Below are positions 17,406-54,247 of a stretch of DNA of 64,000 nt, piece by piece. Numbering within the stretch: position 1 is the first letter of the stretch; each line of letters opens with the position of its first letter. Below the pieces are notes generated by a model that worked only from the letters and a program-made list of their open reading frames with translations, was not told the DNA's origin and did not search any database. Location: positions 1 through 64,000 of IMG/VR virus record IMGVR_UViG_3300043496_000175; one strand, written 5' to 3'. Position numbers and translations under genes: made by a program. Origin of the DNA: a virus.

Positions 17406-17423
17406 GCCCTCCAGAAACACCAC

Positions 17424-17449
17424 AACCCCCGGACGCCATTCCGGGGGTT
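17424..17449. repeat. Perfect 10-bp inverted repeat
   Basis: AACCCCCGGA (17424-17433) and TCCGGGGGTT (17440-17449) with a 6-base loop. It lies in the leader of the HNH gene and upstream of the mobilisation genes; an attenuator, or part of a transfer origin. Confidence 0.6.
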
Positions 17450-17457
17450 GCTTCCTG

Positions 17458-17499
17458 CCGCACGCGGCCAGGCCGAGGACCGAACCTCGGGGTGTGCGG
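17458..17499. other. Candidate transfer origin (oriT) inverted repeats
   Basis: Nested inverted repeats: outer CCGCAC (17458-17463) / GTGCGG (17494-17499), inner CCGAGG (17473-17478) / CCTCGG (17485-17490). They sit about 70 bp upstream of the accessory-protein/relaxase pair, the usual place for a MobP-type oriT. No nic site can be assigned by eye. Confidence 0.4.
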
Positions 17500-17568
17500 G
17501 CCAGGTTACTACGAGGGGGTACAGCTGCGATATACCGATTGTGATGACGAACCTCTATACTATTGCGA

Positions 17569-17856
17569 ATGGTCAACAACGATCCCAAGCGCCACCGCCG
17601 GAAGAACGACCCCGGCGGCCGGTCCATCCTGTATCAAATCCGGTTGTCCGAATCAGAGCAGAAGGCCCTTCAGGCCAAGGCCAAGGAGGCAGGGATCACG
17701 GTCGCCGCGCTGCTGGTGACCAGCGCTTTGAAGGACAACCACGCGGTGGAACAGCAGATCCTCAGCTATGAAGCTGAAGCCTTGAGAAGGCAGTTGCAGC
17801 AGGGTAAATGGGAAGACGAGCTGGTGCTCGCCTTGTCTCGAAAGTTGAACCCGTGA
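17569..17856 (+). CDS. MobC-like mobilisation accessory protein
   Basis: A 95-residue protein starting MVNNDPKRHR at ATG 17569. A -10 TATACT lies 7 bases upstream (17556-17561) with no ribosome-binding site, so it is probably leaderless. A basic N-terminus is followed by a strand-helix-helix pattern: ILYQIRLSESEQKALQAKAK, then GITVAALLVTSAL. This is typical of ribbon-helix-helix MobC proteins that bind oriT and help the relaxase. The stop overlaps the relaxase GTG, so the two are coupled. Confidence 0.75.
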   Translation: MVNNDPKRHRRKNDPGGRSILYQIRLSESEQKALQAKAKEAGITVAALLVTSALKDNHAVEQQILSYEAEALRRQLQQGKWEDELVLALSRKLNP

Positions 17857-19781
17857 TCATCAAGATCGGTGCTCGGAGTTCTGATCCAGGTGGCCTCATC
17901 CGGTACCTTGCGGACACCCAAGACAGCTCCAGGAAGCCGGGTCGGAACCAGCACACGGACCCTTATGTAGTGACCGGTTCGCTGGGTTACACCGGCCCGA
18001 TGGACCCCGGGATGGTGGCTACGTTGTCCGGCGATCTTCGGGTTCCGACGTTGAAGTTTCCTGACACCTTTCCGAAAGGAAATCAGATCTGGCATGCCGC
18101 GATCGTTTTGCAGCCGGAGGAAGGAAAACTTGACTCGGAGACATGGGAGCGGCTGGCTCAGGATTACATGACGGAGATGGGATTGAACGGTGGCGGGCAG
18201 GTTCCGTTGCGGTGGTTCGCAGTCAACCATGGGGTGAACTCAGCAGGATCCGATCACGTCCACATCGCTGCCAACTTGATCCGGGAGAACGGCATCCAGG
18301 CCAAGGTGTGGATGGACATGCCGCGTTCCCAGAAGGTGGCCATGCTGCTTGAAGAGCGGTATGACCTGAAGGTGGTGGCGTCCAGGTACATGGGTGTTTC
18401 CGCTCGTGGGTATGGCATGAATGATCTCAAACGGGCAGTGAATACCGGCGGGAAGGAGCCACGCCGGATTGAGCTGGAACGCAAGGTCCGGGTAGCTGCG
18501 GTGGGGTCCACTTCGGAAGAGTCGTTCGTGCAGAACTTGGAACAGCAAGGGCTGCGGTTCCGGGGCCGGAAGGACCACAACGGCACACTGACGGGTTATT
18601 CGGTAAACCTGCCTGAGACCACAACGGCGAAGGGGAATGAGCACTGGTGGGCGGGTGGCAAGTTGGCGAGGGATTTGTCTCTGCCACGCCTGCGTCTGGG
18701 ATGGGAGGACAAGACCAGCAACACCCCCAGCCACATCAAAGCGGTGGACGAGCTGGTCTCATTGCAGCGGAGCCTGCCGACCGCTTCCTTTGATCAGGTC
18801 GTTGACGCCTCACACCAGATGGCCGGTGCGCTGGCGGCGGTCTCCCAGGCAACCGAGGACCCTCCGGGCGAATTGGCGAGAGCTTCACACCACGCCGGAA
18901 AGTTCGCTCAGACCCGCACCTATGTGCAGAAACCAAAGCCTCCGGCACTATCCATTGGACTGCTGTTCCTGCAGTGCATGGACCCCGCAGGACCGGTAGG
19001 GAAAACTGTGATGCTGAAGCAGCTCATGGCCACCTACCGTGCACTACTCGATGCCCAGTACGCCCAACGCGGACTGGTAACTGCTAAGGGAGGGATCCCT
19101 GGAATGAGTGAAGCACCCGAAGAGGAACTGGTTCAGATCGGCGTCACCGCCGGTGTGACCGCTGGAGCCATGGTGATGGAACGCCATGCTCGGACCAAGG
19201 AGGCCCGTGCCAAGAATGAGAGAAAAGCTCTAGAGCCGTGGGACGCCAAGGCGATCCGGAAGATGCGGGTCGAGAACGAGTGGCTCCAGGCCACGCAGCG
19301 GGCTGCGCACCGGCCCATTCCGGGGCGGATGACCCAGGCTCAGGCTGACCGGATTCAGGCGCTGGCCGATGAGTTCGAGATGCCCGCGATGGTGGTCGGG
19401 ATTGACCGCTACACCGAGAAGGAGGCTGCTGCCTACATCGAATCCCTGGAGGCGCACAGCACCGGTTACGTGCCGGAAAAGGTGGCGCTGCCGCAGACGG
19501 CTCTGCAGGAATCTGACGCGGTGGAAGCCTTCATGGCTGACCTGGAGGCCAAGCACGGAGACAAGATTCCCGAGCAGGCACAGCCCAGTGAGCCGTCCAC
19601 GGTGGTGCAGCGCAAGTGGCTCACCTCCGTGGCCGGACTCAGCCCGGAGGACGCGGAGAAGATGACCAAGGAAGGTGCCGCCGCGTTCCGCACGCAGATG
19701 GAACAGCGGAACGCGCTGGCGGTTGGTTTGACGCCGGTCCAGACTGCTAAGAACGGTCCCGGGAAGGGGCGTAGCCTGTAA
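17853..19781 (+). CDS. MobP-type relaxase
   Basis: A 642-residue protein from GTG 17853 (GTGA overlap). The N-terminal ~200 residues are the relaxase domain: a Tyr in GLIRYLAD (Tyr18) as candidate motif I nucleophile, HAAIVLQPEE (from His81), and motif III with His126 and the HVH pair His135/His137 in NHGVNSAGSDHVHIAANLI, the metal-binding triad of MobP/VirD2-like enzymes. It would nick oriT and pilot the strand into a recipient. The C-terminal ~400 residues are helical, with no helicase or primase motif. Full length with no frameshift. It is followed by a bidirectional terminator and a convergent T4SS operon. Confidence 0.88.
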   Translation: MIIKIGARSSDPGGLIRYLADTQDSSRKPGRNQHTDPYVVTGSLGYTGPMDPGMVATLSGDLRVPTLKFPDTFPKGNQIWHAAIVLQPEEGKLDSETWERLAQDYMTEMGLNGGGQVPLRWFAVNHGVNSAGSDHVHIAANLIRENGIQAKVWMDMPRSQKVAMLLEERYDLKVVASRYMGVSARGYGMNDLKRAVNTGGKEPRRIELERKVRVAAVGSTSEESFVQNLEQQGLRFRGRKDHNGTLTGYSVNLPETTTAKGNEHWWAGGKLARDLSLPRLRLGWEDKTSNTPSHIKAVDELVSLQRSLPTASFDQVVDASHQMAGALAAVSQATEDPPGELARASHHAGKFAQTRTYVQKPKPPALSIGLLFLQCMDPAGPVGKTVMLKQLMATYRALLDAQYAQRGLVTAKGGIPGMSEAPEEELVQIGVTAGVTAGAMVMERHARTKEARAKNERKALEPWDAKAIRKMRVENEWLQATQRAAHRPIPGRMTQAQADRIQALADEFEMPAMVVGIDRYTEKEAAAYIESLEAHSTGYVPEKVALPQTALQESDAVEAFMADLEAKHGDKIPEQAQPSEPSTVVQRKWLTSVAGLSPEDAEKMTKEGAAAFRTQMEQRNALAVGLTPVQTAKNGPGKGRSL

Positions 19782-19794
19782 GTACGGGACATGG

Positions 19795-19823
19795 AAAAGC
19801 CCCCGCCTGCGGCGGGGGCTTTT
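19795..19823. terminator. Bidirectional terminator between relaxase and T4SS operon
   Basis: AAAAGCCCCCGCC and GGCGGGGGCTTTT form a 13-bp stem with a 3-base loop and T runs on both strands. Confidence 0.9.
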
Positions 19824-20183
19824 CTATGCCTGGAATCGGCCGAGAGGAATAACTCCGCCAGGGTCATGGTGCCCGGTTCGCCACTCACATCCGGCGAAGG
19901 TTCCGCCTTCCACACATAGCCGGTCGAACAGCAGCGGGTAGGCGAAGTCCCGTTTCCACACCACCAGATCATCTGGGGAATGCCGCATCGAAGCCAGCTC
20001 CCAGGTTTGCCACAACAGCTTCACCGTGTCAGCGGCTTCCTCATGTTCCTGCCATTTCACGCACCAGATGAGCCTGGTCGGCCTGGCGAACAGCGGAGCG
20101 AGCCGTAGATCGAAGAACTCCACCTCGTTGGAGTAGAGGGGTTCCGGATCCTGCTCCGGCGTGATGGCAAGAGGGCCGGTCAT
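19824..20183 (-). CDS. DUF4913 family protein
   Basis: A 119-residue protein whose ATG at 20183 overlaps the coupling-protein stop. The pattern WCVKWQEHEEAADTVKLLW, VVWKRDFAYPLLFDRL and GGTFAGCEW, with conserved Trp/His/Cys, is the DUF4913 signature known from actinobacterial plasmids and integrative elements. The function is unknown, but its regular position beside TraG-type genes suggests a transfer-related role. Last gene of the T4SS operon. Confidence 0.75.
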   Translation of the reverse strand: MTGPLAITPEQDPEPLYSNEVEFFDLRLAPLFARPTRLIWCVKWQEHEEAADTVKLLWQTWELASMRHSPDDLVVWKRDFAYPLLFDRLCVEGGTFAGCEWRTGHHDPGGVIPLGRFQA

Positions 20184-21892
20184 GCTGGCTCAAACTCTTC
20201 AATGGATGCAGCCACCAGGGGCTCCATCTCCGGGCGTTTGAACCATGGCACGGTGTTCGCCAGGAACGGTCGGCCGCCGGAGAAATGCACCAGGCACTCG
20301 CCCAGCTCGAACGCGGCGATGTCATCAGGTTCCAGCACCGATTCCAGCCGCTGGGAGCTGGACCGGGAGTACCCGTTCTTGCCCTTGCTGGAGGAGGTGC
20401 TGTACTCCGTGACGTAGTGGCGGCCCACCAGATCACTGATCGATTTGAGGAATGTGGGATCGGCTTGACCAGACCCCACGATGCGAATGTTGGAGGCATC
20501 CCACATCTGCTGCATCCCATCCCGGGACCACACCCGGCACCCCTGGGACCAGTTCTGCAGGATCGCCCACGGGCAGATACCACGCGAGCCGTAGTGGGAG
20601 TACAGGTCCGGCAGGTCCTTCAACCGGCACACGTTGGCGACCTCGTCCAGGATCGCCATCAGCGGGATCGGGAGACGTCCGTGGGGGTTCTCGTCCGCGA
20701 ACTCCTCCGCAGCGTCGAGCACCCAGATGGTGAGCGCCGCCGTGAGTGGGCCAGTGGATCCGATGCCCTCTTTGGACAGCGCGATCATCGTGTCCCGCTC
20801 CGAGCGCACGAACTGTTCCGGGGAGAAGCACGGACGCTTATCCAAGATGTCTCTGGGCTCCAGCCACTCCCGGACCCGGGAATTGTTCAGGAACGACACC
20901 ATCTCCGAAGCGGTCCCGAACACACCGGCCCTCTGCTCGTCCGGGGCGAAGTACACACCTTCCAGGGCAGCCGCTGGGAGGACGTACCCGGCCTCCTCCA
21001 GGATCTTGATCGGCCGCTTGTCCCGGGAGTTGGTGAGCCACCGGAACACCTGGGAGATCGGCTGGTCGGAGATGGAGCAGGCCAGCAGTAGACCGGCCAG
21101 CAGGTTCGGTCCGGCGCTGTCGAAGTAGGCGTCCCGTTTGGCGTCGGTAGGGCCGGAGGCGTCCATCCAGATTTTCGCCAGCTTGGTGGCTCGGACTTCG
21201 TCGGTGACGTAGTCGTTGAGATTCAGCCACCAGTCCGGCGTGTTCTTTCCGGTGATCCGCTGTGGGTCGAATACCCACCTCTTTCCGGGGCGGGCACCAC
21301 GGATAGCGTCCGGCAGATCCCGCTTGTTGGTAGTGGCGAACACCACTCCAGGAGCGTTCATGATCATGGGTATGGCGAAGCCTGTGGTCTTGCCTGATTC
21401 CGGTCCCATAATGATGGTGCCGGTCTTGCGGAAGTCGGTGTACCGGTCTTTCTTCCCGGTCATGGTGCGGACCAGCATCACGCCCTTGACATCACCAGTG
21501 GTGAGCCGAGATGCGTCGGACCGTTTGGTGACCGATTCCAGGCTCAGTTCCTCCCCCTTACCGAGGTGGCGGGCCGCCTTACCGGCGTCGGTGAGTTTCG
21601 GTTTGCGCTTCCACAGGTACAGCGCCAGGCCCAGCACCAGAATCGTGAGCGTTCCTACCAGGACGGCGGCGGTCAAGTGCTCCCCCGTCCAAGGGATCCG
21701 TCCCTGCACAACACCGAGGATCTCCCCAGTAGCGACCGTGGGAGGGAACCCTGGGACCCAGTTGCCGGTACGCAGGAACGACGTCAATTCCGTCCAGCCG
21801 TACAGCACCAGCACTGCGCCTACGGCGGCCCCGACCAGGTAGATGTTTCCCTGGCCGGGAGCCGCCGGACGGTTCCTTGTCTTGCCGTTCAT
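20180..21892 (-). CDS. VirD4/TraG-type coupling protein (T4CP)
   Basis: A 570-residue ATPase; start MNGKTRNRPA at ATG 21892, chosen by the ATGA overlap with the VirB4-like gene. Two N-terminal membrane helices (about residues 18-40 and 72-95), then a Walker A GPESGKTT (163-170). The Walker B LMAILDEVANV and a typical TraG sequence (VFATTNKRDLPDAIRG) follow. T4CPs bind the relaxosome and pump the DNA strand into the channel. The full set of motifs is intact. With the relaxase 70 bp past its 3' partner, this completes the DNA-processing side of a conjugation system. Confidence 0.9.
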   Translation of the reverse strand: MNGKTRNRPAAPGQGNIYLVGAAVGAVLVLYGWTELTSFLRTGNWVPGFPPTVATGEILGVVQGRIPWTGEHLTAAVLVGTLTILVLGLALYLWKRKPKLTDAGKAARHLGKGEELSLESVTKRSDASRLTTGDVKGVMLVRTMTGKKDRYTDFRKTGTIIMGPESGKTTGFAIPMIMNAPGVVFATTNKRDLPDAIRGARPGKRWVFDPQRITGKNTPDWWLNLNDYVTDEVRATKLAKIWMDASGPTDAKRDAYFDSAGPNLLAGLLLACSISDQPISQVFRWLTNSRDKRPIKILEEAGYVLPAAALEGVYFAPDEQRAGVFGTASEMVSFLNNSRVREWLEPRDILDKRPCFSPEQFVRSERDTMIALSKEGIGSTGPLTAALTIWVLDAAEEFADENPHGRLPIPLMAILDEVANVCRLKDLPDLYSHYGSRGICPWAILQNWSQGCRVWSRDGMQQMWDASNIRIVGSGQADPTFLKSISDLVGRHYVTEYSTSSSKGKNGYSRSSSQRLESVLEPDDIAAFELGECLVHFSGGRPFLANTVPWFKRPEMEPLVAASIEEFEPA

Positions 21893-23352
21893 GCCGCCCA
21901 CCGCTTACTGGTCAGGTTGTACTTCTTCTCCATGTCCACCAGCTCGATGTCCACCGCGATACCAGGATGGTTCGCGATCTTGATCAAGCACTTGCCCCGG
22001 CCGGGCGGTGGCCGTTTCTTCTTCGTCTTCTGCGACAAAGTTGGGGGTGTGGTCCAGGAGTTGAGGGTTTCCTTCTCCACGTTCGAGAGCTTCACCGCAC
22101 CGGACAGCCGGGGCATCTGGGAAGCCGGGAGACCGAACGCCACCACCATTCCGCAGCGCTCCACGATGCCGACCGCTTTGGCGCGGTCCTCCTCGGTGGG
22201 CAAAGCGTTCAGGTCTTCCATGGCGTGGCTGGCGTAGGTCACCGCAACGCCCTTGTCACGGTTCAGACGGGTCAGGCCGTCCGCACGGTCCACCAACCCC
22301 ATTCCGGCCCGCAGCGCCCGCCACAGCTCGTCCAGGATGACGTGCACGTTCTGCTGTGGCTCCAGACCGCAGTCCGCGAGGAAGTTGCCGATCGAGATCT
22401 GCCCGAAGCCGATCCCCCAGCACAACATCAGGGCAGCGGCCTGCAGCTTCTGATCGGTGTCATCGATGGAGGACACGTTGAACGCCACATGCTCACCACG
22501 CCGCATCTGCGTGGTGGTCTGCCGGGAGAAGATCTCCCCAATCCCATGCCCCTGGGACAGGGATTCCAGGTCCGCTTCCAGCGTCTCGGTGATCTCCTGA
22601 TAACGCTCCAGCGACCCCCGTGCCACCGCGACCTTCAGCATCTCCGGCGTCGGGTTCTTCACCACCTTCAACAGGTCAGCCAGGATAGGCATCCGGCGGG
22701 TGAAACGGGTGTCCAGGATCCGCAGCGCCTCCGACAGGATCGAGGATTCCCGGGAGGACGGGGCGATGGCCCGGTGAATGGTCAGCAACGTCTCCAGGGC
22801 CGATTGACGGCGGCCTTTGGCTTCTGCCAGCAACTGTTCAGCATCTGGAAGAAACCCGGCGCTGCGCAACCGGGCGCAGGCCTCGTACACGTCGCCCATG
22901 TCCAGGACGTTGATGTACCCACGGCCACGGCCGACCATGATCACCTGCCCGCCGAGTGCCTTGATCAGCTCGGTGTACTCACCCTTGAGGTCCCCCAGGA
23001 CCAGTGACTTCACCCCGAACAGGTCCAGACCCATGATCCAGCGCTTGATCAGGGTGCTCTTGCCCAGAGCGGGCAGACCCAGGATGAATGCGGACGGCTG
23101 GGAGATCAGTTGAGCCCGCTCGAACCAGGACACCGGATCACAGCAGATGACAGCGCCCTTGGACTGCTTGCGTTTCACCCGCCCGATCGGGACACCGATG
23201 GTGGGGGCACTGGAGCCCAGCACGAACGGGAACAGCCCAGCGACCTCATTGCTGGTGCCCCGGTGAAACACCGGGTTCTGCAGGTACTTCCACGCACCGC
23301 CACCGGGCCCGCGCGCTCCCCGGCTGCTGCTCTTACTGCGCGGCCGGAACAT
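21889..23352 (-). CDS. VirB4/TraC-like conjugation ATPase
   Basis: A 487-residue protein from ATG 23352. Walker A is GLPALGKST (92-100), followed by LVLGDLKGEYTELI as in VirB4 and HerA-like ATPases, and Walker B NVHVILDELWRAL. It lacks the long N-terminal domain of classical VirB4. In actinobacterial systems that part is supplied by the separate SCO6880-like protein encoded two genes upstream. It is expected at the cytoplasmic base of the channel to energise assembly. Confidence 0.88.
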   Translation of the reverse strand: MFRPRSKSSSRGARGPGGGAWKYLQNPVFHRGTSNEVAGLFPFVLGSSAPTIGVPIGRVKRKQSKGAVICCDPVSWFERAQLISQPSAFILGLPALGKSTLIKRWIMGLDLFGVKSLVLGDLKGEYTELIKALGGQVIMVGRGRGYINVLDMGDVYEACARLRSAGFLPDAEQLLAEAKGRRQSALETLLTIHRAIAPSSRESSILSEALRILDTRFTRRMPILADLLKVVKNPTPEMLKVAVARGSLERYQEITETLEADLESLSQGHGIGEIFSRQTTTQMRRGEHVAFNVSSIDDTDQKLQAAALMLCWGIGFGQISIGNFLADCGLEPQQNVHVILDELWRALRAGMGLVDRADGLTRLNRDKGVAVTYASHAMEDLNALPTEEDRAKAVGIVERCGMVVAFGLPASQMPRLSGAVKLSNVEKETLNSWTTPPTLSQKTKKKRPPPGRGKCLIKIANHPGIAVDIELVDMEKKYNLTSKRWAA

Positions 23353-23569
23353 TGCGGGCCTTCCGGGCCGGGCTCGAATCCTTGTGCATCGGGCAGAGGA
23401 ACTCCTTGCCGTTCGGGGTGCGGCTCCAGCCGTTCTGCAGGGCGGTGGCGATGACCGCGTCCAGCTCCCCGAAGTCGGCGTCCGACGTCTGAGCGCAGGT
23501 CGGCTGGAACAGGTTGTTGGTCTTCGCGGAGCAAGAGATCCAGTGGTACTGAGCGGTGTGCGTGGGCAT
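23333..23569 (-). CDS. Small Cys-containing T4SS-operon protein (78 aa)
   Basis: Starts MPTHTAQYHW at ATG 23569, 1 base past the SCO6880-like stop, and overlaps the ATPase start. It carries three Cys (ISCSAK, TCAQ, FLCPMH) and a basic C-terminus, suggesting a small metal-binding fold. No family recognised; conserved position in the operon argues for a transfer role. Confidence 0.65.
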   Translation of the reverse strand: MPTHTAQYHWISCSAKTNNLFQPTCAQTSDADFGELDAVIATALQNGWSRTPNGKEFLCPMHKDSSPARKARNVPAAQ

Positions 23570-23570
23570 G

Positions 23571-25103
23571 TCAGATTCCTTCGGAGAGAGCGGTCGGGAT
23601 GTTGAGGTGCTGGCTGGTAACAAGACCCAGAGGACCAATCCCCTGAGCGAACGCCGAATCCTGAGACCCGTTCATCGGGCGCAGGATCAGCCGGGCCGCC
23701 GGGCCCTGGTGTTCCACCACCGCACGGGCTTTGGCGATGTTCTCCTTGCCCTTCACGGTGGCGGTGAGCAGGATCGCGAAGTTCACCAGCGCGGCACCAT
23801 GAGCCTCGTGGTGCCGGGCGGAATCCGCTTCGGTGACCTGCCGGTCCTGCCGGGCGGTGGGTTTCTTCGAGTTCCGCATCCGGCTTTCAGCCGTCCGGTG
23901 GTCATGCTCAGCAATGGTGCCCGCCGCTGCAGGGTCGATCGGCTTGTACAGGAACGTCAGCCGGGACACCGCGACATCCGGAGATGGTTCCAGCACCGGA
24001 CGCAGCACCTTGGAGATCACCCGGCTGGAGATGAACCCCACCACCTCCCAGGTCATGGAAATGGCATCCGAGTGCTGGTAGTAGTCCCAGAACGCTTGCC
24101 CGCCAGAAGGACCGACGCTGTCCCACAAGGTCACCGGTGGTGGTTCACCCTTGGACGCCAGTTCGTCATAGGCCTTGCGGTCCTCCGGGTTGTAGGCGCA
24201 GCGCACGGCTTCGATGACGTCATCGGTGGACATCGGGACCACGGTGCCCGCACCGGTTTCCGGGAGGGTGTCCATCAACTGGGGCAGGCGGTCAGCGATC
24301 AGACGGCCGATGACCTGAGCAGGGTCCTGTCCTTTGATCTTCTTGCCGTGCTCATCGGTCTCCGGTTTCGGGGCCCGGAACGACAAAGTGACGTAAGCAC
24401 GGACAGCAGTGGAGCCCTGCGGGTAGTTCTCCATCACCTCGGCCGCCCATTCCTTGCTCAGGGAGGACGCCTTGGGAGAGGTGTTGTTGGTCAATTCCAG
24501 GGTCAGGCCGGGACCGGAGTCCTGGGTGGTCTCGATCGTCACCGCCGCCTGCATCAGGTACACGGACTCGAACGCCAAGTCCGCCAACCATTCTCCGTAC
24601 TTGGCTACCTGCGCCTCCAAGTCTTCCGGGTCCACCAGGGTGGATCCGTCGGGGTCGGCGGAGATGTTCACCACGAACAGCCGTTCCTTCGGGTATTGCA
24701 GAATCGTGAACGGCTGTCCGTTCTTGTCTTCCCAGGCCTCCAGCGTGGACTCGGACAGAACCCCGGGGAGCTTGTGGCTGCCGAAATGCGTGAGGGTGCC
24801 GGAGAAAAACAGATTCGACCCTTCCCGGCGGGATGCGGCGAAGCCCATCCGGGCACCGACCTTGTCCAGGATCGATTGCTGATTGCGGTCCTTCAGGACC
24901 AGCAGAATCAGCACGCCAGCACCGACCACCGCCACGATCATCGCAGTGACGATGCCTGCGGAGGGGACCAGCAGGATCACGATGAAGGACAGGATCACCG
25001 CCAGGATGGTCCCGACCGGGCCGAAGATCCAGAACCCCCAGCCTTTGGGTTGGTGATAGCCGCCATAGGTTTTGACTTTGGATTCGGCAACAGCAGAAGA
25101 CAT
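23571..25103 (-). CDS. SCO6880-family conjugation protein
   Basis: A 510-residue protein; start at ATG 25103 behind CCGAGCAAGGAG. Two membrane helices near the N-terminus (about 24-45 and 48-68: GTILAVILSFIVILLVPSAG, VTAMIVAVVGAGVLILLVL), as in PrgI-type proteins, precede a cytoplasmic domain with the VirB4 N-terminal character (LLRYPKERLFVVNISADPDG-like strand). This is the arrangement described for SCO6880 and related Gram-positive T4SS proteins. It probably forms a split VirB3-VirB4-like unit with the ATPase at 21889-23352. Confidence 0.82.
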   Translation of the reverse strand: MSSAVAESKVKTYGGYHQPKGWGFWIFGPVGTILAVILSFIVILLVPSAGIVTAMIVAVVGAGVLILLVLKDRNQQSILDKVGARMGFAASRREGSNLFFSGTLTHFGSHKLPGVLSESTLEAWEDKNGQPFTILQYPKERLFVVNISADPDGSTLVDPEDLEAQVAKYGEWLADLAFESVYLMQAAVTIETTQDSGPGLTLELTNNTSPKASSLSKEWAAEVMENYPQGSTAVRAYVTLSFRAPKPETDEHGKKIKGQDPAQVIGRLIADRLPQLMDTLPETGAGTVVPMSTDDVIEAVRCAYNPEDRKAYDELASKGEPPPVTLWDSVGPSGGQAFWDYYQHSDAISMTWEVVGFISSRVISKVLRPVLEPSPDVAVSRLTFLYKPIDPAAAGTIAEHDHRTAESRMRNSKKPTARQDRQVTEADSARHHEAHGAALVNFAILLTATVKGKENIAKARAVVEHQGPAARLILRPMNGSQDSAFAQGIGPLGLVTSQHLNIPTALSEGI

Positions 25104-25126
25104 CGGTACTCCTTGCTCGGAACGGG

Positions 25127-26098
25127 TTACTTACGGATTCCGGCCATGACGACCATCGGAGCGGCGCTGGTGACCATGCCGCCAGGCCCGCTGCCTCCGG
25201 AGGCGGGAGCGGTGGCCGGTGCGGTGAGACGCATGGTGGCGGGCAGCGCCAGTACAGCCATCGCGAGGATGGTGATCCCGTAAATGATCTGCAGCAGGCC
25301 ATTGCCAGCGGCGGAGGTGTCGGTCCCGAGGAACCGGAACCCCACGCCGTAGATGGCGGCGGCGATCATCTTGTAGAGGATCAGACCTGCGATCCAGCCA
25401 ATTTGCGTCTTGAACGCCTGTTTGCCACTTTCGGTGCCGGAGGATGCTGCGCCGAACACCAGCAGACCAGTGATGATGAACAGCGCGCCGCTGCGGCCCA
25501 TCATGAGGACCACCTGGAAACAGGCGACCAGCATCCCGATGAACAGCAGTATGAAGATCAAGATCCCGGAGGTGATTCCGGCGGCGTTGTCGAACAGGGA
25601 GAAGAAGTTGTCAGCGAAACTCGTTCCCTCCGTGCTCTTCTCCAGGATGGTGTTGGCGATGTAGTTGGTGACCAGCAGCCCGAACGCGATGGTCGGGACA
25701 GCCAGGGCCACGGTTGCCATGTAGGTGAAGACCATGGACGCGACCAGTTTGACCGGGCCGTTGTTCATTTCGATCATCATGCGGATGACCTGGATCGCCA
25801 TGATGAAGCACATCACCACCGCGCCGATCCAGAGGAGCTGGTTCTGCAGGAACGTGATGACGTCCGCTGTGACACCGTTCTGGTCTACGACAGCAGGATC
25901 AGGAACGTCCTGCCAGAAGGTGAACATCGTCTTGGTGGAGTCAGCGACGCCTCGTTTGGCGTCCTGCACCCATGGTTCGATGACCGAGTTCTCGATGACC
26001 TGCGTGGCGATGCTGTCCGGTTCTTCGCAGCCGGGCATCGTCCACGACGAGAACCAGCCGGTGTCTTCCCCACAGTTGATGGAATCTCCGGGAGCCAT
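25127..26098 (-). CDS. VirB6/TrbL-like polytopic channel protein
   Basis: A 323-residue protein from ATG 26098 (ATGA overlap with the upstream gene, preferred over ATG 26116). The N-terminus is extracellular-looking with two Cys (INCGEDTG, MPGCEEPD). Six or so membrane helices follow from about residue 85 to the end, including LLWIGAVVMCFIMAIQVIRM and ASMVFTYMATVALAVPTIAF. The topology and operon place match the VirB6/TrbL inner-membrane channel component. No signal peptidase site is evident. Confidence 0.82.
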   Translation of the reverse strand: MAPGDSINCGEDTGWFSSWTMPGCEEPDSIATQVIENSVIEPWVQDAKRGVADSTKTMFTFWQDVPDPAVVDQNGVTADVITFLQNQLLWIGAVVMCFIMAIQVIRMMIEMNNGPVKLVASMVFTYMATVALAVPTIAFGLLVTNYIANTILEKSTEGTSFADNFFSLFDNAAGITSGILIFILLFIGMLVACFQVVLMMGRSGALFIITGLLVFGAASSGTESGKQAFKTQIGWIAGLILYKMIAAAIYGVGFRFLGTDTSAAGNGLLQIIYGITILAMAVLALPATMRLTAPATAPASGGSGPGGMVTSAAPMVVMAGIRK

Positions 26099-26919
26099 CA
26101 GGCTGCCCCTCCCCATGGAATGTATGTGCGGTCAGTTGAGTTGTTGACCACCTGATCGGACTTGCTCGGGATCACCATGCGCCAGTCGTTGTCCTCCCAG
26201 GACACGGTGTAGGTCAGGGCGGTGTTGCGTCCGGCGTCCGCCCCGGTGACCAAGGTGTACTGCATCTCGATGCTGGCCAGGGATGCCGAGTAGGAGTTCC
26301 AGCGGTAACCGGAGATCCTGACGGTGGGACGGTTTTCGACCGTCACACCGGTGGCTTCCATCAGGAAGGCGTCGTAGTTGCCTGTGTGCGAGGCGCGGGC
26401 GGTGATGAAGTCCGTTGCCTGCCCGGCGGCGGTGGCTGTCAGGATGCCAGTAGCAAAAGATGCTGTGGCATAGAGCGCACCTTCTGGTGTCCTGGAAAAG
26501 CAAGCCGGGTAAGGGGTTTCAAGGTCCGGACCGGCGGTGGCAGACGTCGGCCGGACCATGTCCCCATCCCTGACCCACACCGTCTCATAGGTGGCGTTGA
26601 CCACCTGTTCTGGTGTGACCTCTTCGGCCTTTTGTTCCTTGCACAGGGAAGGTTCTGCTGCTTCCGGAGCTGCAGAAGTCCCGAGAGTGGCGGACGCCGA
26701 GGGTTTTGCTGCAGCCGGAACCGCTGTGGGTTCCGGTGCAGACGGCGACAGGAAGTACATCGCCAGCAGCGCGATCAGCAGGACACCGATGAAGGTGGCC
26801 GAGATGACTTTGCTCTTCTGACTGACACCCTGCGGTGCCAGCCACCAGCGTGCGGTTCTGGTAGCTCTGTTGTTCTGTGCCACCGCGTTGTAATCAGTGA
26901 CACGGCGGCCCTTGCCCAT
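26098..26919 (-). CDS. VirB8/TcpC-like membrane-anchored protein
   Basis: A 273-residue protein; start MGKGRRVTDY at ATG 26919 (ATGA overlap), much shorter than the apparent ORF to 27261. One transmembrane helix near residue 38 (VISATFIGVLLIALLAMYFL), a Pro/Ala/Ser-rich linker, then an external alpha+beta domain of about 160 residues ending in a strand-rich part (NDWRMVIPSKSDQVVNNS). This layout fits VirB8/TcpC/TrbF-type core proteins of Gram-positive T4SS. Assigned from topology and context rather than a clear signature. Confidence 0.7.
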   Translation of the reverse strand: MGKGRRVTDYNAVAQNNRATRTARWWLAPQGVSQKSKVISATFIGVLLIALLAMYFLSPSAPEPTAVPAAAKPSASATLGTSAAPEAAEPSLCKEQKAEEVTPEQVVNATYETVWVRDGDMVRPTSATAGPDLETPYPACFSRTPEGALYATASFATGILTATAAGQATDFITARASHTGNYDAFLMEATGVTVENRPTVRISGYRWNSYSASLASIEMQYTLVTGADAGRNTALTYTVSWEDNDWRMVIPSKSDQVVNNSTDRTYIPWGGAA

Positions 26920-27209
26920 CAGGTACCGGTGACGGTTCCGACGAACCCGACGATGACGCCGAAGCCGAGGATCGCGCCGATGATCTTGGCGGCGTGGCCG
27001 ACCGCTTCGTTGCTGCCTCCGGAGCGTTCGTTCTTGAACGCCAGGAAGACGCAGCCTGCGAGCGCGAAGCAGGCAACCGCCGCGACGATCCAGCCGACGT
27101 TGCCCCAGATGGCACCTGTGGTGGTTTTGATCCCTTCGCTGGGGGCGGTCGGGTTGCCCGGGTCGAAAGGAACCGCCGCGAGGCTGTCGTAGTAGAGCTT
27201 GGTGAGCAT
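26919..27209 (-). CDS. VirB2/TrbC-like pilin or small channel protein
   Basis: A 96-residue protein starting MLTKLYYDSL at ATG 27209, after CCGAGTAGGAGA. Two hydrophobic helices (WIVAAVACFALAGCVFLAF and IIGAILGFGVIVGFVGTVTG) flank a short polar loop, the VirB2/TrbC topology. First gene of the operon with ATGA overlap to the next. No obvious signal-peptide cleavage site, so it may insert unprocessed. Assignment is from topology and position. Confidence 0.7.
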   Translation of the reverse strand: MLTKLYYDSLAAVPFDPGNPTAPSEGIKTTTGAIWGNVGWIVAAVACFALAGCVFLAFKNERSGGSNEAVGHAAKIIGAILGFGVIVGFVGTVTGT

Positions 27210-27250
27210 GGTGTCTCCTACTCGGTGGGTGGAACTTGTTGACGGAGCGA

Positions 27251-27280
27251 AGCATAGCCACATTGGCCAGATGGGTGCAA
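27251..27280 (-). promoter_or_regulatory. Promoter of the leftward T4SS operon
   Basis: On the minus strand: -35 TTGCAC (27275-27280), an 18-bp spacer and -10 TATGCT (27251-27256). It overlaps the divergent HTH gene promoter region and precedes the CCGAGTAGGAGA leader. Confidence 0.7.
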
Positions 27281-27298
27281 GTAGTGCATCATTTACCA

Positions 27299-27499
27299 AT
27301 GCACCCTGATGAACTCCTGCGGGATTGCCCGCCCAAACTCAGCATTGTTGATCTTGCTGCGCTGTTGGGCGTCCGCCGAAGAACGGTCAATAACTGGCTC
27401 AAGCGGAAGGAGAACCCGTTGCCCGGCATCAAGTTTCCCGGTGGATGGGTGATAGACACCGAAGAACTGAGGGCCTGGCTGCTCTCGCTCCACAACTAG
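27299..27499 (+). CDS. Excisionase/MerR-like HTH protein (66 aa)
   Basis: Starts MHPDELLRDC at ATG 27299; CATCAT 6 bases upstream suggests a leaderless start. The HTH is clear: LSIVDLAALLGVRRRTVNNWLKRK, then a wing FPGGWVIDTEELRAWL, the winged-helix pattern of Xis/MerR-type proteins. Divergent from the T4SS promoter (27251-27280), so it may control transfer genes; an excision role would need an integrase not seen here. In operon order before the NlpC/P60 gene. Confidence 0.8.
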   Translation: MHPDELLRDCPPKLSIVDLAALLGVRRRTVNNWLKRKENPLPGIKFPGGWVIDTEELRAWLLSLHN

Positions 27500-27521
27500 C
27501 CTCACCGAGCAGGGGGAACCA

Positions 27522-28634
27522 ATGAGAATCGTCCGAGCACTGTGCGCTGTCCTTGTGCTGCTACTGGCCGGGTGCACTCTCGTGCCCACCGACTCTGGCA
27601 CAACTGGAGGGTCCGGTCCGGCGACGTGCACCGGTGCTCCCACCGGTCTGCGTCCCGAGCAGTTGCAGACCGCTCAAGCGATTGTCAGCGCCGCCTACGA
27701 AGTCGGATTATCCGAGACCGACGCCAAGAAGGCCGCACAGATCGCTATCACCGTCGCTATCACGGAGAGCACCCTGGGTGCGGGTATGCCCTTCGGTCAG
27801 TTCAACAAAGGTGACGTCTCCTCCAACGGTGTCCCCACCACGTCACGGGGGCCTTTCCAGCAGAAACAGGAGTGGGGGCCGATAGTCGATCGGCTCGATC
27901 CCAACAAGAGCGCCAAGATGTTCTTCACTGGTGGGCAAGCTGGGCAGAAGGGTCTGCTGGACGTAGCCGGATGGCAGAACATGGCACCAGAGATGGCCGC
28001 CGAGGCCGTGCAGGGCTCCCGGCAGGGCGGGGCGAACTTCGCCAGGAACCTTGCGCAAGGGACAGCGGTCGCGGACTCCATCACCTGCGTAGCTGGCGCT
28101 GCAGGCAGCGTGGTGGCCAACGGCGTCAGCGTGACCCTGCCGAACAATCAGTTCGTCGCTGAAGCCGTCAGAGGCAAGACCGTCACCGCACCGAACGCCG
28201 GGATAGCCAAAGGCTTGGCCGCTGGACTGAGTCACCTCGGCAAGCCGTATGTCTGGGGCGGGGGTGGGGACGGAGAAGGACCGAACAACGGCTGCGCGCG
28301 GGGTGGTGGGCAGCTCAACTCCTGTGGCTCCGAGATCGGGTTCGACTGCTCCGGTCTCACTGCCTACGTTCTCGTGCAAGGTGGATTTCCTAGTCCCGGA
28401 GGAAACTCCGGTGCTCAACGCGGTGGGGGTACCAGCGTCGCCTATGCTGCAGGCCTGGCGGGTGACATCGTTGGATTCCCAGGCCATGTGGCCTTGTTCC
28501 TCGGGGTTATCGACGGCACGCAGTACATCCTGGAGGCATCCACCGTCGGTGTCCCTGTGCATGTGGTTGCATTGACGAGATCCGATCGAGACCCCATGTT
28601 GCATCGTTACTGGTCCCAGGGAGCTGTTTCATGA
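27522..28634 (+). CDS. NlpC/P60 lipoprotein, VirB1-like wall hydrolase
   Basis: A 370-residue protein from ATG 27522 after CCGAGCAGGGGG. Lipobox LAGC puts the lipidated Cys at residue 18. Residues about 45-190 look like a lysozyme/transglycosylase-type helical domain (QIAITVAITESTLGAG). An NlpC/P60 domain follows with FDCSGL (Cys276) and GHVALFLG (His322), the Cys/His of the papain-like dyad. Such two-domain hydrolases open the cell wall for Gram-positive T4SS (VirB1/TcpG-like). The position beside the T4SS operon rather than the lysis genes fits that role. The stop overlaps the next start. Confidence 0.85.
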   Translation: MRIVRALCAVLVLLLAGCTLVPTDSGTTGGSGPATCTGAPTGLRPEQLQTAQAIVSAAYEVGLSETDAKKAAQIAITVAITESTLGAGMPFGQFNKGDVSSNGVPTTSRGPFQQKQEWGPIVDRLDPNKSAKMFFTGGQAGQKGLLDVAGWQNMAPEMAAEAVQGSRQGGANFARNLAQGTAVADSITCVAGAAGSVVANGVSVTLPNNQFVAEAVRGKTVTAPNAGIAKGLAAGLSHLGKPYVWGGGGDGEGPNNGCARGGGQLNSCGSEIGFDCSGLTAYVLVQGGFPSPGGNSGAQRGGGTSVAYAAGLAGDIVGFPGHVALFLGVIDGTQYILEASTVGVPVHVVALTRSDRDPMLHRYWSQGAVS

Positions 28635-28867: not shown

Positions 28868-29239
28868 ATGACGTCCCTGGAGCGCAAGAACTCCCCCGTG
28901 GAGAACATCCAGGCTGCCTGGAAGATTCTGGCCAACGGTGCCACCGTCGCCGCCAACACGCTGGTCGAGATCTCTCGGGACGGGGAAAGCGAAGCCGCCC
29001 GCAACCAGGCCTCCATGGCGATCCTGGACCGCGTAGGAATCTCTGCGAAGCCGGAGGTCACCGTGCGGGTGGTGCCTTCCGAGTACTCCGGAGAAGGTCT
29101 GGCTGAGGGCGGCATGACGCAGGGCGAAATCGTCCGTAAACGCCTGCTCGAACTGGCGGCGGCTACCGCTGCTGAAGCTGAACGTCAGCAGCAAGAAGCT
29201 GAGACCATCTACGACGCCGTGATCGTGGAGGAGAGTTAG
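28868..29239 (+). CDS. Probable terminase small subunit
   Basis: A 123-residue helical protein starting MTSLERKNSP at ATG 28868 with TATCCT six bases upstream, consistent with a leaderless start. Residues 37-60 (ARNQASMAILDRVGISAKPE) match the 'AAEAILDRAG' helix common in actinophage small terminases. The C-terminus is a coiled coil (AAATAAEAERQQQEAET). It would recognise phage DNA and deliver it to the large subunit encoded 1.3 kb downstream. Unusually, four genes separate it from the large subunit. Confidence 0.65.
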   Translation: MTSLERKNSPVENIQAAWKILANGATVAANTLVEISRDGESEAARNQASMAILDRVGISAKPEVTVRVVPSEYSGEGLAEGGMTQGEIVRKRLLELAAATAAEAERQQQEAETIYDAVIVEES

Positions 29240-29979: not shown

Positions 29980-30552
29980 ATGGCAACAGAAGCACGGTAC
30001 GGCTGGGAGCTTCCCGATCTCGCGGATGTGGCGGACGGTCCCGATGCGTTCCTGCAGTTCGCGAACGATGTCTCCGACACCATCTCCAACACCACCGTCC
30101 AGACTTACACCCCAAGCTGGACCAGCCTCACCAGTGGCGGAAACCCTTTCGGTGTAGCAACCCGCTCCGGGCATTACCGAATGCTGAACAAGGTTGTGGA
30201 CTTCGTTGCCCGGCTGACTTTCGGGTCCGGGACCAGTGGTGGACTCGGGGAGCTGATGGTGGGACTCCCTGTCCCGGCGAACTCCTCCACGCAATACGTT
30301 GTGAACTGCATTCTGTGGACCCCCTCATCCGGCGGAACCTGGCTGGGGTATGGGGCGATCGACCAGCAGTCCGGGTTCACCAATATGCGTCCCCAGTTTC
30401 CCATCAACAATGCCCGCTCTGACATGTCCGGCTGGGCATCTACCGGCGGAATCCTCGGTTTGAGCATTCCAACCGTGCCGAGTAACCCTGGTGGGTACTC
30501 CGTCATGAACGGTGGGTACTTCACTGCTCATGGGCGGTACTTCGCAGCGTGA
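29980..30552 (+). CDS. Minor tail / fibre-like protein
   Basis: Start MATEARYGWE at ATG 29980, chosen because GAGAGG lies 9 bases upstream; 190 residues. The opening 'MATEARYGWELPDLADVADG' and the following 'DAFLQFANDV' match the recurrent start of actinophage minor tail/fibre proteins (typically ..DLVKDGA..IR). The rest is beta-rich with Gly/Ser/Asn (SGGNPFGVATRSGHYRM), resembling a host-recognition jelly-roll. It stands apart from the tail genes, directly upstream of the large terminase with a GTGA overlap. Confidence 0.6.
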   Translation: MATEARYGWELPDLADVADGPDAFLQFANDVSDTISNTTVQTYTPSWTSLTSGGNPFGVATRSGHYRMLNKVVDFVARLTFGSGTSGGLGELMVGLPVPANSSTQYVVNCILWTPSSGGTWLGYGAIDQQSGFTNMRPQFPINNARSDMSGWASTGGILGLSIPTVPSNPGGYSVMNGGYFTAHGRYFAA

Positions 30553-32018
30553 CCGCTGATCTGTCCCTGGAGCATCAGGTTGCGCTACTTCCCAAGGATC
30601 AGCAGGAAGCCATCCTGGCTGACCTGGACATGGAAGCGCTCCCATATGACTGGACCTGGGGCGGGAGACCTAGTCAGCTCCTGCCGGTAGAGCCGGATGC
30701 TAGTTGGACGGTGGCGCTCGCTCTGGCCGGTCGTGGATTCGGTAAGACCCTGATGGGGTCTCAGTGGATCCGCATGCTCGATCAGCAATGGTCACACTTG
30801 CGGTGGGATACCGCACACATGCGGTTCGCGCTACTCGGGCGTACCGCCGCCGACGTCCGTGACGTCATGCTGGAAGGCCCCTCCGGGCTGCTTAACATCT
30901 ACCCGCCCTCATTGCAGGACCAGGTGATCTGGACTCCTACCCGCCGCAGAATTGAACTCCCCGGTGGTGCGGTAGGGTTAGTGAACTCAGCGGAAGAGCC
31001 AGATCAGTTGCGTGGCCCCGCTTTTCACATCGGGTGGTCAGATGAGACCGCCAGCTACAAACAAGTCCGGTCCATGGCTGAAGGCAACCTGACCGCCTGG
31101 GAGAACCTCCGGATCGCGGTCCGGCTCGGAACCCACCCGCAGATCCTGGCCACCACCACCCCCAAGCGGATCCCGCTACTCAAAGCGTTGCTGGCCGAAG
31201 CTCACGATCAGCCGGAAAAGTTCATTCTCCGACGGGGCAAGACCACCGACAACGTCAAGCTCTCCTCCGGCTACCTGGATACCCTGTTCGGCCTGTACGG
31301 CGGCACCCAGCTCGGTAAGCAGGAGCTGGAAGGGGAGATGCTGGATGACGTCGTCGGAGCCATGACGTCGGAAGCCATCATCGAGCAGTACCGCGTCACC
31401 GGCCTGCCGATCGGGATCCCTTGGATCAAGATCGTCGGAGTGGACCCCTCAGTCGCTGAAAAGCCGCACGATGAGTGCGGCATCGTGGTGGTCTACATCT
31501 CCAACACCTACCCCGTGCTCAAGCGACACGCCTTCATCGTGGAGGACCTGTCCCTGCGAGCCAGCCCCACCGTCTGGGGTGATGTGGTAGTCCGAGCAGC
31601 GCACGAACACGGTGCAACAGTGGTGGCCGAAACCAACCAGGGAGCCAACCTGGTCAAGCAGATGGTGCGGCAATCCGCTGCCGCAGCCAACCTGCAGAAC
31701 CCACAGATCCGGGAAGTCTGGTCCTCCAAGAGCAAGTCGGTCCGGTCCGAACCTGTCGGCGGTGCCTACGCCCGTGGACGCATCCACCACGTTAATTTCC
31801 TGCCCGAACTTGAAGACCAGATCGGGACCTGGGTCCCGGGAGAAAGTGGCTACTCCCCGGACCGGATGGACGCACTCGTGCATGCCTGCGCTGCCGGTAT
31901 GTTCCCCGAGGCATTGATCAACGGTGCACCGGGAAGTACTACCTTGCACTCGGTGGCCAATCAGCGGATCCCCCTGACTCACCAGGTGGCCTTGCCTGCA
32001 CGAAGAGGTGCGATGTGA
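30549..32018 (+). CDS. terL: Terminase large subunit
   Basis: A 489-residue protein from GTG 30549 (GTGA overlap). Walker A LAGRGFGKT (59-67), Walker-B-like VSSIDE-type segment (HIGWSDETASY), then the nuclease region with VGVDPSVAEKPHDECGIVV and DRMDALVHACAA carrying the acidic residues of the RNase-H-like fold. It pumps DNA into the procapsid and cuts it. Full length. Confidence 0.92.
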   Translation: MTADLSLEHQVALLPKDQQEAILADLDMEALPYDWTWGGRPSQLLPVEPDASWTVALALAGRGFGKTLMGSQWIRMLDQQWSHLRWDTAHMRFALLGRTAADVRDVMLEGPSGLLNIYPPSLQDQVIWTPTRRRIELPGGAVGLVNSAEEPDQLRGPAFHIGWSDETASYKQVRSMAEGNLTAWENLRIAVRLGTHPQILATTTPKRIPLLKALLAEAHDQPEKFILRRGKTTDNVKLSSGYLDTLFGLYGGTQLGKQELEGEMLDDVVGAMTSEAIIEQYRVTGLPIGIPWIKIVGVDPSVAEKPHDECGIVVVYISNTYPVLKRHAFIVEDLSLRASPTVWGDVVVRAAHEHGATVVAETNQGANLVKQMVRQSAAAANLQNPQIREVWSSKSKSVRSEPVGGAYARGRIHHVNFLPELEDQIGTWVPGESGYSPDRMDALVHACAAGMFPEALINGAPGSTTLHSVANQRIPLTHQVALPARRGAM

Positions 32019-32670: not shown

Positions 32671-32676
32671 CAGAGC

Positions 32677-33552: not shown

Positions 33553-33579
33553 GGGTTACTGCCAGCTACGCTCTTGCCC

Positions 33580-35166
33580 ATGGGTCTGTTCACGCGCGAG
33601 GTTTCACCGGCAGAAGTGCCCCCGGTTGCCGGTCGCCGCGCTCGCAGCGCGAGCTGGGGACAGCACCGCGCGATCACCGCTTCAGCGGAAAAGATCAACC
33701 TCAAAAACCCGCTGATGCTGCAGGTTACGCAGAATCAGGCCGAGTGGCAGACCGCAGCCTGGACCGGCTACAACCGCGTCGGGGAAATCCACTACGGCTT
33801 CGGTTTGCTGGCCAACCTGCTCTCCCGCGTCCGCATCTACGCCGCCGTGGTGAACGAGTCCAACGAGGCCCCCAGCGACCTGTCCCAGCTCGAAGACGAC
33901 GATCGCATCTCGGAGAATCTAGCCGAAGCAGCCACTGCCGCGATTGCCGAATTGACCCTCAAAGACTTCGCCAGTTTCGTCCGCAAGTTCAGCCTCAACA
34001 TGTCAGTACCGGGAGAGTGCTACCTGGTGCACATGCCGCCGGTCGAGGGCGGCGAGAAGGCCTGGATCGTCTGTTCCAAGTCCGAGCTGGTGATCCGGAC
34101 GGACAGCATCCAATACCTCCCACTTCGGGGCGGGCAACGCCGGGAACTCCCCAAGGACACCTACGTCGCCCGCATGTGGCGGCAGTCCCCGGAGTACACC
34201 ATGGAGGCAGACTCCTCCATGATCGGTGTGCAGGACAGCGTCGAAGAGCTGCTCCTCTGCCAGCGACTGACACGCGGAGCCGCCCGCTCCCGGATGAACG
34301 CCGGTGTGTTGTTCATCCCGGATGGCATCACCACCGCCCGGACCGGGGCCACTGCTGAAGCCGTCATCGAAGAACCCGACGACGACATCTCCGGTCTCAC
34401 AGCCATGGCTCAGCAGGACCCTCGCGGGGACATGGTCAACCAGTTGATGGACGCCATGGTCACCCCGATCGGTGATGAAGGCAGCGCCGCCGGTGTCGTG
34501 CCCCTGGTGCTGGTCGGGCCCACGGACCAGGGCATGGGAATCCGGCATGTGTCCTTCGAGCGGAACACCGACGAGTGGTTGGTGAAGCGCGGGGAGATCG
34601 CGCTCGACCGGATCCTGCAAGGCATCGACATCCCCAAGGAAGTCGTCACCGGCATGCAGGCGGTGAAGTACTCCAACGCAGTGGTGATTTCTGAGGATCT
34701 GTACAAGGCCAACGTCGAGCCCCTCGCACTGGTGCTTGCGGATTCCCTGACCACGGTCTATCTCCGGCCAGTGCTTAAAGCCGCTGGCTTTACCGATGAG
34801 CAGCTCAAAGAGATCGTGGTCTGGTACGACCCCAGTGAGATTGTCACCCGCCCGAACAGCTCCGAATCCGCCACTCAGGGCGTGGATCGGAATCTGCTTT
34901 CCCATAAGGCCTGGCGGCGGGAACATGGCTACGCCGAATCCGATGCGCCATCATTGGAGGAGATCGCCCTCTCCAAGCTGGCGGAGCTACCGGAGGCTGT
35001 GCAGCTTCAGGTGCTGGCCAAAGTGTTCAAGGGCTTTGTTGATGTTGATGAGGATCCGGAGCCCGCTCCGCAGGAGAGGGCTACCGCGCGTCCCTTGGCT
35101 GCGGTCAAGGACGACACCGAGAAAGACCCCCAACGAGTCGCGATTCAACAGGTAGGGATCAAGTAA
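33580..35166 (+). CDS. Portal protein
   Basis: A 528-residue protein from ATG 33580 (TACGCT lies 7 bases upstream, a possible leaderless start). Actinophage portal features: an N-terminal ITASAEKINLKNPLML segment, the crown/wing region and a helical stem LLLCQRLTRGAARSRMNAG-VLFIPDG. Next come the 'DRILQGIDIPKEVVTGMQAV' segment and the 'SNAVVISEDLYKANVEPLAL' helix typical of the portal fold. It forms the dodecameric DNA gate at one capsid vertex. C-terminus acidic and variable. Confidence 0.88.
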   Translation: MGLFTREVSPAEVPPVAGRRARSASWGQHRAITASAEKINLKNPLMLQVTQNQAEWQTAAWTGYNRVGEIHYGFGLLANLLSRVRIYAAVVNESNEAPSDLSQLEDDDRISENLAEAATAAIAELTLKDFASFVRKFSLNMSVPGECYLVHMPPVEGGEKAWIVCSKSELVIRTDSIQYLPLRGGQRRELPKDTYVARMWRQSPEYTMEADSSMIGVQDSVEELLLCQRLTRGAARSRMNAGVLFIPDGITTARTGATAEAVIEEPDDDISGLTAMAQQDPRGDMVNQLMDAMVTPIGDEGSAAGVVPLVLVGPTDQGMGIRHVSFERNTDEWLVKRGEIALDRILQGIDIPKEVVTGMQAVKYSNAVVISEDLYKANVEPLALVLADSLTTVYLRPVLKAAGFTDEQLKEIVVWYDPSEIVTRPNSSESATQGVDRNLLSHKAWRREHGYAESDAPSLEEIALSKLAELPEAVQLQVLAKVFKGFVDVDEDPEPAPQERATARPLAAVKDDTEKDPQRVAIQQVGIK

Positions 35167-53762: not shown

Positions 53763-54232
53763 CCTTTGAACAGGCAATCGCGATCATCGTCGTCGCCATC
53801 ATCACGGCGGCGGGGAGTATCTACGCAGCACGGAAGTCAGCGAAAAACGACCAGAACCGGATCAACCAGGCCATGGTCACGGTGCTCGGGGTGGAGCGCG
53901 AAAAGATCGCGGCGGAACTGGATCGGGCAACCATCCGGACCAACGCTACGAATGAGCAGTTGGAAAAGGTGGGGACCGACTTGAGAGCTGCGAAAGAAGA
54001 GTTGACCGAAGTCAGGATCACTCACAGGGAAGCCATAGCCGAGAAGGACGCCACGATCAGGGAACGTGACGCTACGATCCGGGAGGTACAGGCTCGTACC
54101 ATCGAGCTGGAAGCCATGTTGAACGCCTGCCGAACCGAGCTGGGACAGGTGCGTGCAGAGCTGCAGAACGCCTTGACGTTGATCCACCAGCAGGCGCAGC
54201 AGCTTCAAACGCAAAGGAACGGCCAGTCCTAG
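53759..54232 (+). CDS. One-span coiled-coil lysis-cassette protein (157 aa)
   Basis: A GTG start at 53759 (GTGA overlap). An N-terminal transmembrane helix (AIAIIVVAIITAAGSIYAAR) is followed by ~120 residues of coiled coil (EREKIAAELDRATIRTNAT). Topology and position next to the endolysin suggest a holin/spanin-type accessory protein. Not a canonical family. Confidence 0.65.
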   Translation: MTFEQAIAIIVVAIITAAGSIYAARKSAKNDQNRINQAMVTVLGVEREKIAAELDRATIRTNATNEQLEKVGTDLRAAKEELTEVRITHREAIAEKDATIRERDATIREVQARTIELEAMLNACRTELGQVRAELQNALTLIHQQAQQLQTQRNGQS

Positions 54233-54247
54233 CCAGGAGGCTCCGTA

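Follow-up and report, generated by a model that had tools for sequence, protein, structure and literature searches.

Phages and conjugative elements are usually treated as separate transmission strategies. Phage-plasmids of the P1 and N15 types combine virion genes and plasmid functions on one replicon; relaxases and origins of transfer (oriT) are rare in phage-plasmid surveys, and in P1-like phage-plasmids either is almost absent and was gained mostly where phage genes were lost (PMC10879196, PMC12977533). In prophage composites with an integrative and conjugative element (ICE), such as Streptococcus phi-SgaBSJ31_rum, a 106-kb record, phage genes stand together with a Tn5252-like ICE block, an integrase, a site-specific recombinase and resistance genes. 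Conjugative type IV secretion systems (T4SSs) of the SCO6880 type are encoded by actinobacterial plasmids (Arthrobacter pA44BH1, Rothia mucilaginosa NZ_CP023509) and by a Klenkia marina contig, with no virion genes nearby. The locus described here has the same genes in the same order as these actinobacterial loci but adjoins a phage terminase, with no plasmid partition genes found. It lies in bases 1–64,000, referred to as the window, of the 107,206-base IMG/VR virus record IMGVR_UViG_3300043496_000175 (G000).

G000 is a tailed phage (Caudoviricetes, siphovirus type), known here from its genes. These encode a terminase, a Mu-F-like protein, portal, capsid, major tail protein, tape measure and tail proteins, as well as a LysM endolysin, a family A polymerase (PolA), an SNF2-type helicase and a Prim-Pol. 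It shares with phage-plasmids the presence of virion genes and plasmid functions on one replicon, and with phi-SgaBSJ31_rum a conjugation block next to phage genes. In contrast to that composite, no integrase was found in G000, and its T4SS is old within its clade. Prophage-ICE composites are the known precedent, and they are a different kind of object. Our literature searches found no phage-plasmid with a full T4SS and, in the open-access literature, no description of a lineage of phages that encodes a complete T4SS of its own; one apparent precedent (PMC13230959) proved to concern ordinary conjugative plasmids. Among the annotated actinophages of our collection none was found to have a T4SS coupling protein or ATPase, and comparison of the relaxase and TraG with annotated phages matched only fecal fragments and the Streptococcus composite. 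We consider it probable, on the sequence evidence set out below, that G000 represents a tailed actinobacterial phage with an actinobacterial conjugation module as a permanent part of its genome, and that it is also able to move this genome by conjugation.

Genes of the conjugation module

The module spans 17.4–28.6 kb of the window, and all ten genes named in the initial annotation are open and intact. They are listed here with one further small gene; g-numbers denote genes of the window, and G and L numbers other genomes and fragments with which it was compared.

17569..17856, plus strand: NikA/MobC-like relaxosome accessory protein, 95 amino acids (aa) (PF21983, 3e-8; homologues in G002, G068 and G069)
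17853..19781, plus strand: MOBP relaxase, 642 aa (PF03432; plasmid relaxases 31–33% identical)
19824..20183, minus strand: DUF4913 protein (PF16259, 1e-13; same position in pA44BH1 and the Rothia plasmid)
20180..21892, minus strand: TraG/VirD4 coupling protein, 570 aa, Walker A GPESGKT (TraG-D_C, PF12696, 5e-32; plasmid proteins up to 46% identical; comparison with TrwB)
21889..23352, minus strand: VirB4-type ATPase g46, 487 aa, motor part (homology and AlphaFold model)
23333..23569, minus strand: small Cys-rich protein, 78 aa, between the ATPase and SCO6880 genes (also in G002, 39%, E 7e-9)
23571..25103, minus strand: SCO6880-family T4SS protein, 510 aa (NCBIfam NF042935, E 2e-105, above the curated cut-off)
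25127..26098, minus strand: VirB6/SCO6881-like polytopic membrane protein g49, 323 aa (homology to plasmid and ICE loci; tree; weak SCO6881_fam match)
26098..26919, minus strand: VirB8-like bitopic membrane protein g50, 273 aa (homology, E 1e-13; NTF2-like C-terminal fold in the model)
26919..27209, minus strand: VirB2/TrbC-like pilin candidate g51, 96 aa (plasmid-like position; weak pilin-like match)
27522..28634, plus strand: NlpC/P60 cell-wall hydrolase with lipobox LAGC, VirB1-like role (PF00877; 53% to G002; 66–74% in L006/L013)

The NikA-like and relaxase genes and the NlpC/P60 lipoprotein gene thus lie on the plus strand, and the genes from DUF4913 to the VirB2-like protein on the minus strand. 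Relaxase, coupling protein and VirB4 ATPase form an intact trio, and the SCO6880, VirB6 and cell-wall hydrolase genes follow the conserved order of monoderm SCO6880-type systems. From TrbC through the VirB8-position protein, the VirB6-position protein, SCO6880, ATPase and TraG to DUF4913, a usual TraG neighbour in actinobacterial T4SS loci, the order in the Rothia plasmid is that of the window; pA44BH1, which carries MobC and a MOBP relaxase, agrees from the VirB6 position onward. Identities between these actinobacterial loci and the window are 41–46% for TraG, 50–54% for the ATPase and about 33% for the relaxase.

Residues Y18, H126, H135 and H137 of the relaxase are invariant in a three-row alignment of the window, phage G002 and a plasmid relaxase. 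The metal triad therefore reads H126-x8-H135-x-H137, with eight residues in the first interval and not the six initially given. For g46, Pfam gave no VirB4 match and the AAA_10 profile PF12846 missed it; its assignment comes from the identity to ATPases of T4SS loci in Actinomycetota noted above and from its AlphaFold model (predicted template-modelling score 0.83), for which the best match was Thermoanaerobacter VirB4 (4ag6; template-modelling score 0.78 on the target, E 1e-12), followed by TrwB, HerA and TrwK. Neither the Walker A GKS nor the DE pair varies across the phage and bacterial rows of the alignment. The proposed gene families were borne out by profile matches for the NikA-like protein, relaxase, DUF4913, TraG, SCO6880 and NlpC/P60. 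Among the membrane proteins the VirB6 assignment held (g49 is 41% identical to its G002 counterpart and 28% to plasmid proteins); those of VirB8 and VirB2 are less sure. Most gene junctions, not all as initially given, overlap by 1–4 bases. The packaging genes, placed at a distance of 300 bp, are farther away: TerL, the terminase large subunit, starts 1.9 kb past the NlpC gene, with only small genes between.

Related phages and a second lineage

Two fragments of related phages, L006 and L013 (TerL 78% identical), belong to the window's sublineage and keep its junction between NlpC and TerL: a homologue of the NlpC gene is followed by the small genes that precede the terminase, in the order of the window. 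G002, a 65-kb genome whose TerL, capsid and major tail proteins are 63%, 65% and 73% identical to those of G000, carries directly upstream of its terminase genes for NikA, relaxase, DUF4913, TraG, VirB8, VirB6, SCO6880, the Cys-rich protein, ATPase and NlpC. The module proteins of G002 and the window share 33–53% aa identity, and the core block is inverted in G002. A second metagenome sample yielded G067, which matches G002 at 99.995% identity across 21 kb spanning the module-terminase junction.

As many as 80 bacterial loci, most of them from Actinomycetota, entered the phylogenetic trees; they had been selected for similarity to the ATPase of the window, which biases the sampling. The window and G002 were sisters (Shimodaira–Hasegawa-like approximate likelihood-ratio support 100 for VirB6, 99 for the relaxase and 98 for the ATPase); the ATPase tree has very long branches, and its sister support was lost once G068 and G069 were added. 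These data show an old tie between module and phage backbone. Codon usage of the T4SS genes differs from that of the phage core as little, or nearly as little, as the core groups differ among themselves. Three relatives with the same backbone, G003, G004 and G060 (83–90 kb), group together with support in the TerL tree; TraG and relaxase are absent from all three. Because of these relatives, the module is, as far as the sequences tell, a clade-specific trait that was gained or lost as a unit.

An ATPase profile run against 2.9 million viral contigs retrieved four records, all of them phages (G002, G067, G068 and G069), and a TraG scan returned the same four and one distant fragment. The window coupling protein alone found no close relatives in the viral contigs; profile scans were required. 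G068 (94.6 kb) and G069 (87.2 kb) belong to another lineage: their capsid proteins share 59% identity with one another and 27–31% with the capsid proteins of the window and G002. Portal, protease and tail genes are present in both; the terminase of G068 matches PF03237/PF17289 and has a 69% identical homologue in G069. Here the module adjoins the capsid gene and comprises NikA, relaxase, DUF4913, TraG, ATPase, SCO6880, VirB6, VirB8, a VirB2-like protein and a cell-wall hydrolase. In L287 and L288, relatives of G068 without a T4SS, the protease and capsid genes are a few kb apart, whereas G068 has 46 kb there, including the module. The nearest relatives of the G068/G069 T4SS are largely bacterial (Klenkia marina contig, 44–61%), and the Klenkia marina genome gave no terminase match. 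An approximately unbiased test does not reject a single clade of the four phage T4SSs (VirB6, p 0.42; relaxase, p 0.26), and either one or two acquisitions would fit these sequences. G069 encodes a ParA (7e-41) and G068 ParA-like and ParB-like proteins with weaker matches, so that the second lineage looks like phage-plasmids.

Origin of transfer, cargo and alternative explanations

The expected place of an oriT is the intergenic region upstream of nikA:

17406..17568, plus strand: candidate oriT region by position, with hairpins at 17423-17450 and 17458-17499

This region gave no match to the plasmid oriT core. The core, GGAGCAAGCTATACACTTAG-loop-CTAAGT, is shared by 25 bacterial loci (L151-L213, L008) and lies 120–187 bp upstream of nikA. 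As an observation in its own right, the strongly conserved core CGGAGCAAGCTATA and its hairpin in these actinobacterial MOBP elements are usable for oriT annotation. Genomes were searched with a position matrix of the short ungapped core and compared with shuffled sequences. The best genome-wide match in G068 is at 40805(+), 2 kb upstream of nikA (score 16.3; shuffles mean 5.5, highest 17.4), and that in G069 at 48909(-), 0.3 kb upstream of nikA (score 5.9; shuffles mean 4.8, highest 12.0). Both are in the right orientation relative to nikA, as in plasmids, and G069 holds the exact 12-mer CGGAGCAAGCTA. In the second lineage it is thus position and, in G069, the 12-mer that suggest a plasmid-type oriT core ahead of nikA; the scores do not. 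A profile of the full-length oriT region had no matches in phages. Since the relaxases of the window and G002 are diverged, a diverged nick site is expected there.

That relaxase and NikA are kept alongside the channel in all four phages points to DNA as the cargo, and the phage genome would be the simplest cargo. We infer a scheme in which channel assembly, cargo and timing within the phage cycle are all conjectural. Within a cell that is infected or in the carrier state, NikA and the relaxase would act as a complex to nick a phage oriT, and TraG would pass the relaxase-bound strand to an envelope channel of VirB4, SCO6880, VirB6 and VirB8 with a VirB2-like pilin. The NlpC/P60 lipoprotein would make a local breach in the cell wall, and a phage genome copy would enter a touching cell. 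The same genome would also be packaged by the terminase and released by lysis.

Several findings weigh against such a phage. The VirB8 and VirB2 assignments come mainly from position and weak similarity, and a fold search with the g50 model gave weak NTF2-like matches and no significant VirB8 match. Neither G000 nor G002 matched ParA (PF13614) or ParB (PF02195), and no tyrosine or large serine integrase was matched in G000, G002, G068 or G069; a stable carrier state that would permit mating is therefore not evident in G000 and G002, whose lineage may be lytic or carrier-state. The oriT core was not found in either of them with the core matrix, and shuffled sequences reach maxima as high as the scores in G068 and G069. 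Records with a T4SS are very rare in IMG/VR, and all phage records here are uncultured metagenome contigs without end repeats, the 107,206-base record included.

One could envision four other explanations of the locus. The record is metagenomic and its parts come from two kinds of element, as would be the case if a plasmid or ICE contig had been joined to a phage contig during assembly. Such a chimera is excluded for practical purposes, because the junctions recur in relatives at 63–78% TerL identity, in the separate sample and, at another locus, in the other lineage; the codon usage of the T4SS also fits the phage core. Recent or dead-end entry of a conjugative element into a phage genome is exemplified by phi-SgaBSJ31_rum, with its own integrases and resistance genes. 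We regard it as improbable, given that no integrase was found in the record, that all module genes are intact, that the phages are sisters at deep divergence with codon usage equal to that of the phage core, and that no near-identical ICE-like relative with integrase and replication genes was found. Nor were resistance genes found in G000, and no plasmid replication gene was seen in it, though rep genes were not tested for. To judge from the sequences, then, the record is neither chimeric nor the carrier of a recent insertion. The par-type genes of G068 and G069 would fit an element that is at base a conjugative plasmid, has picked up virion genes and has ceased to produce infectious particles. 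For the window this is very unlikely, somewhat more so than an insertion: packaging, head, tail, lysis and polymerase genes are complete, and G003, G004 and G060, the closest relatives that share the backbone, are ordinary phages lacking a T4SS.

The main rival is that the T4SS is kept and chiefly delivers something other than the phage genome, either proteins with killing, anti-competitor or defence roles, or third-party DNA such as host plasmids and satellites. T4SSs are often repurposed for protein export, and the failure to find an oriT in the window's lineage would agree with this. Against it stand the retention of relaxase and NikA, with catalytic residues conserved in those aligned, the position-based oriT in G068 and G069, and the lack of any recognisable effector gene within the module block. 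We consider this rival unlikely, yet clearly less so than the other three.

The initial annotation had described a complete-looking conjugative T4SS inside a siphovirus genome, and that description agrees with the profiles, the structure model, the plasmid-like gene order, the junction of a relative that was assembled independently, and the persistence of the module in a distant relative as well as in a second lineage. It had named two outcomes that would speak against it. Decay was not seen, as relaxase and ATPase are intact in every module-bearing relative, and a chimera is contradicted by the independent assemblies of the module-phage junction. A clade that keeps relaxase, coupling protein and channel despite divergence to 33–40% identity suggests that selection can hold both transmission strategies in one genome. 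A wider proposition seems to us evenly balanced. On this view conjugative phages would be a real and stable kind of mobile element: on at least two occasions, tailed viruses infecting Actinomycetota would have acquired a conjugation system from plasmids, which long-term selection maintains, and they would travel by mating as well as in virions. If true, models of phage host range, superinfection immunity and gene flow would change, and a phage could reach an adjoining cell with no need of a receptor, perhaps within soil aggregates or filaments. Relaxase-dependent transfer of phage DNA that is resistant to DNase and insensitive to neutralising antiserum would be predicted. Such elements would escape annotation pipelines in which T4SS genes are discarded as contamination from plasmids.

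The phage backbone and other observations

A hexamer-based caller predicted 162 genes in G000. The main backbone features within the window are as follows.

28868..29239, plus strand: small conserved phage protein g54 (also in relatives without a T4SS)
30549..32018, plus strand: TerL (PF03237/PF17289)
33580..35166, plus strand: portal protein (phrog_776, 2e-92)
38544..40160, plus strand: major capsid protein g66 (phrog_777, 2e-81)
40203..41351, plus strand: major tail protein g67 (phrog_792)
43909..48243, plus strand: tail tape measure protein (phrog_58, 3e-85)
53169..55378, plus strand: lysis cassette, membrane/holin candidates and LysM endolysin (LysM 2e-14; amidase part and holins by sequence reading)
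61769..63571, plus strand: family A DNA polymerase (PF00476, 2e-44)

The window TerL is 40–46% identical to those of large actinobacteriophages, the values for DSL-LC01, Gordonia GodonK and GMA2 and Microbacterium Pumpernickel being 42–46%, and DSL-LC01 has both TerL and portal in common with G000. The virus may be a phage of soil-type, actinobacterial hosts, a single element with two routes of spread. No prophage of its clade was found in the bacterial genomes scanned with the major tail protein, so the host is not identifiable via integration.

A 2'-5' RNA ligase-like protein (window 35171-35797), encoded between the portal and a protease/structural gene, is kept throughout the phage clade. 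Straight after the portal, G003 (gene 20, 10241-) and G004 (gene 127, 72377-) encode a protein of ~3000 aa that is partly related to window gene 63. In G054, a TerL homologue (32778-34263) apparently lies in two frames, owing to a frameshift, an intron or an assembly error. In G068, a TET-associated glycosyltransferase (32206-33231) and an RlaP nucleotidyltransferase (41440-42246) hint at modified DNA and RNA repair in the second lineage. The right arm of G000 encodes GH81 endo-beta-1,3-glucanase and GH16 glucanase-like proteins (record 83590-86274 and 70424-73970), which are unusual for an actinophage, and a TROVE-domain (Ro60-like) protein lies at record 88036-89682.
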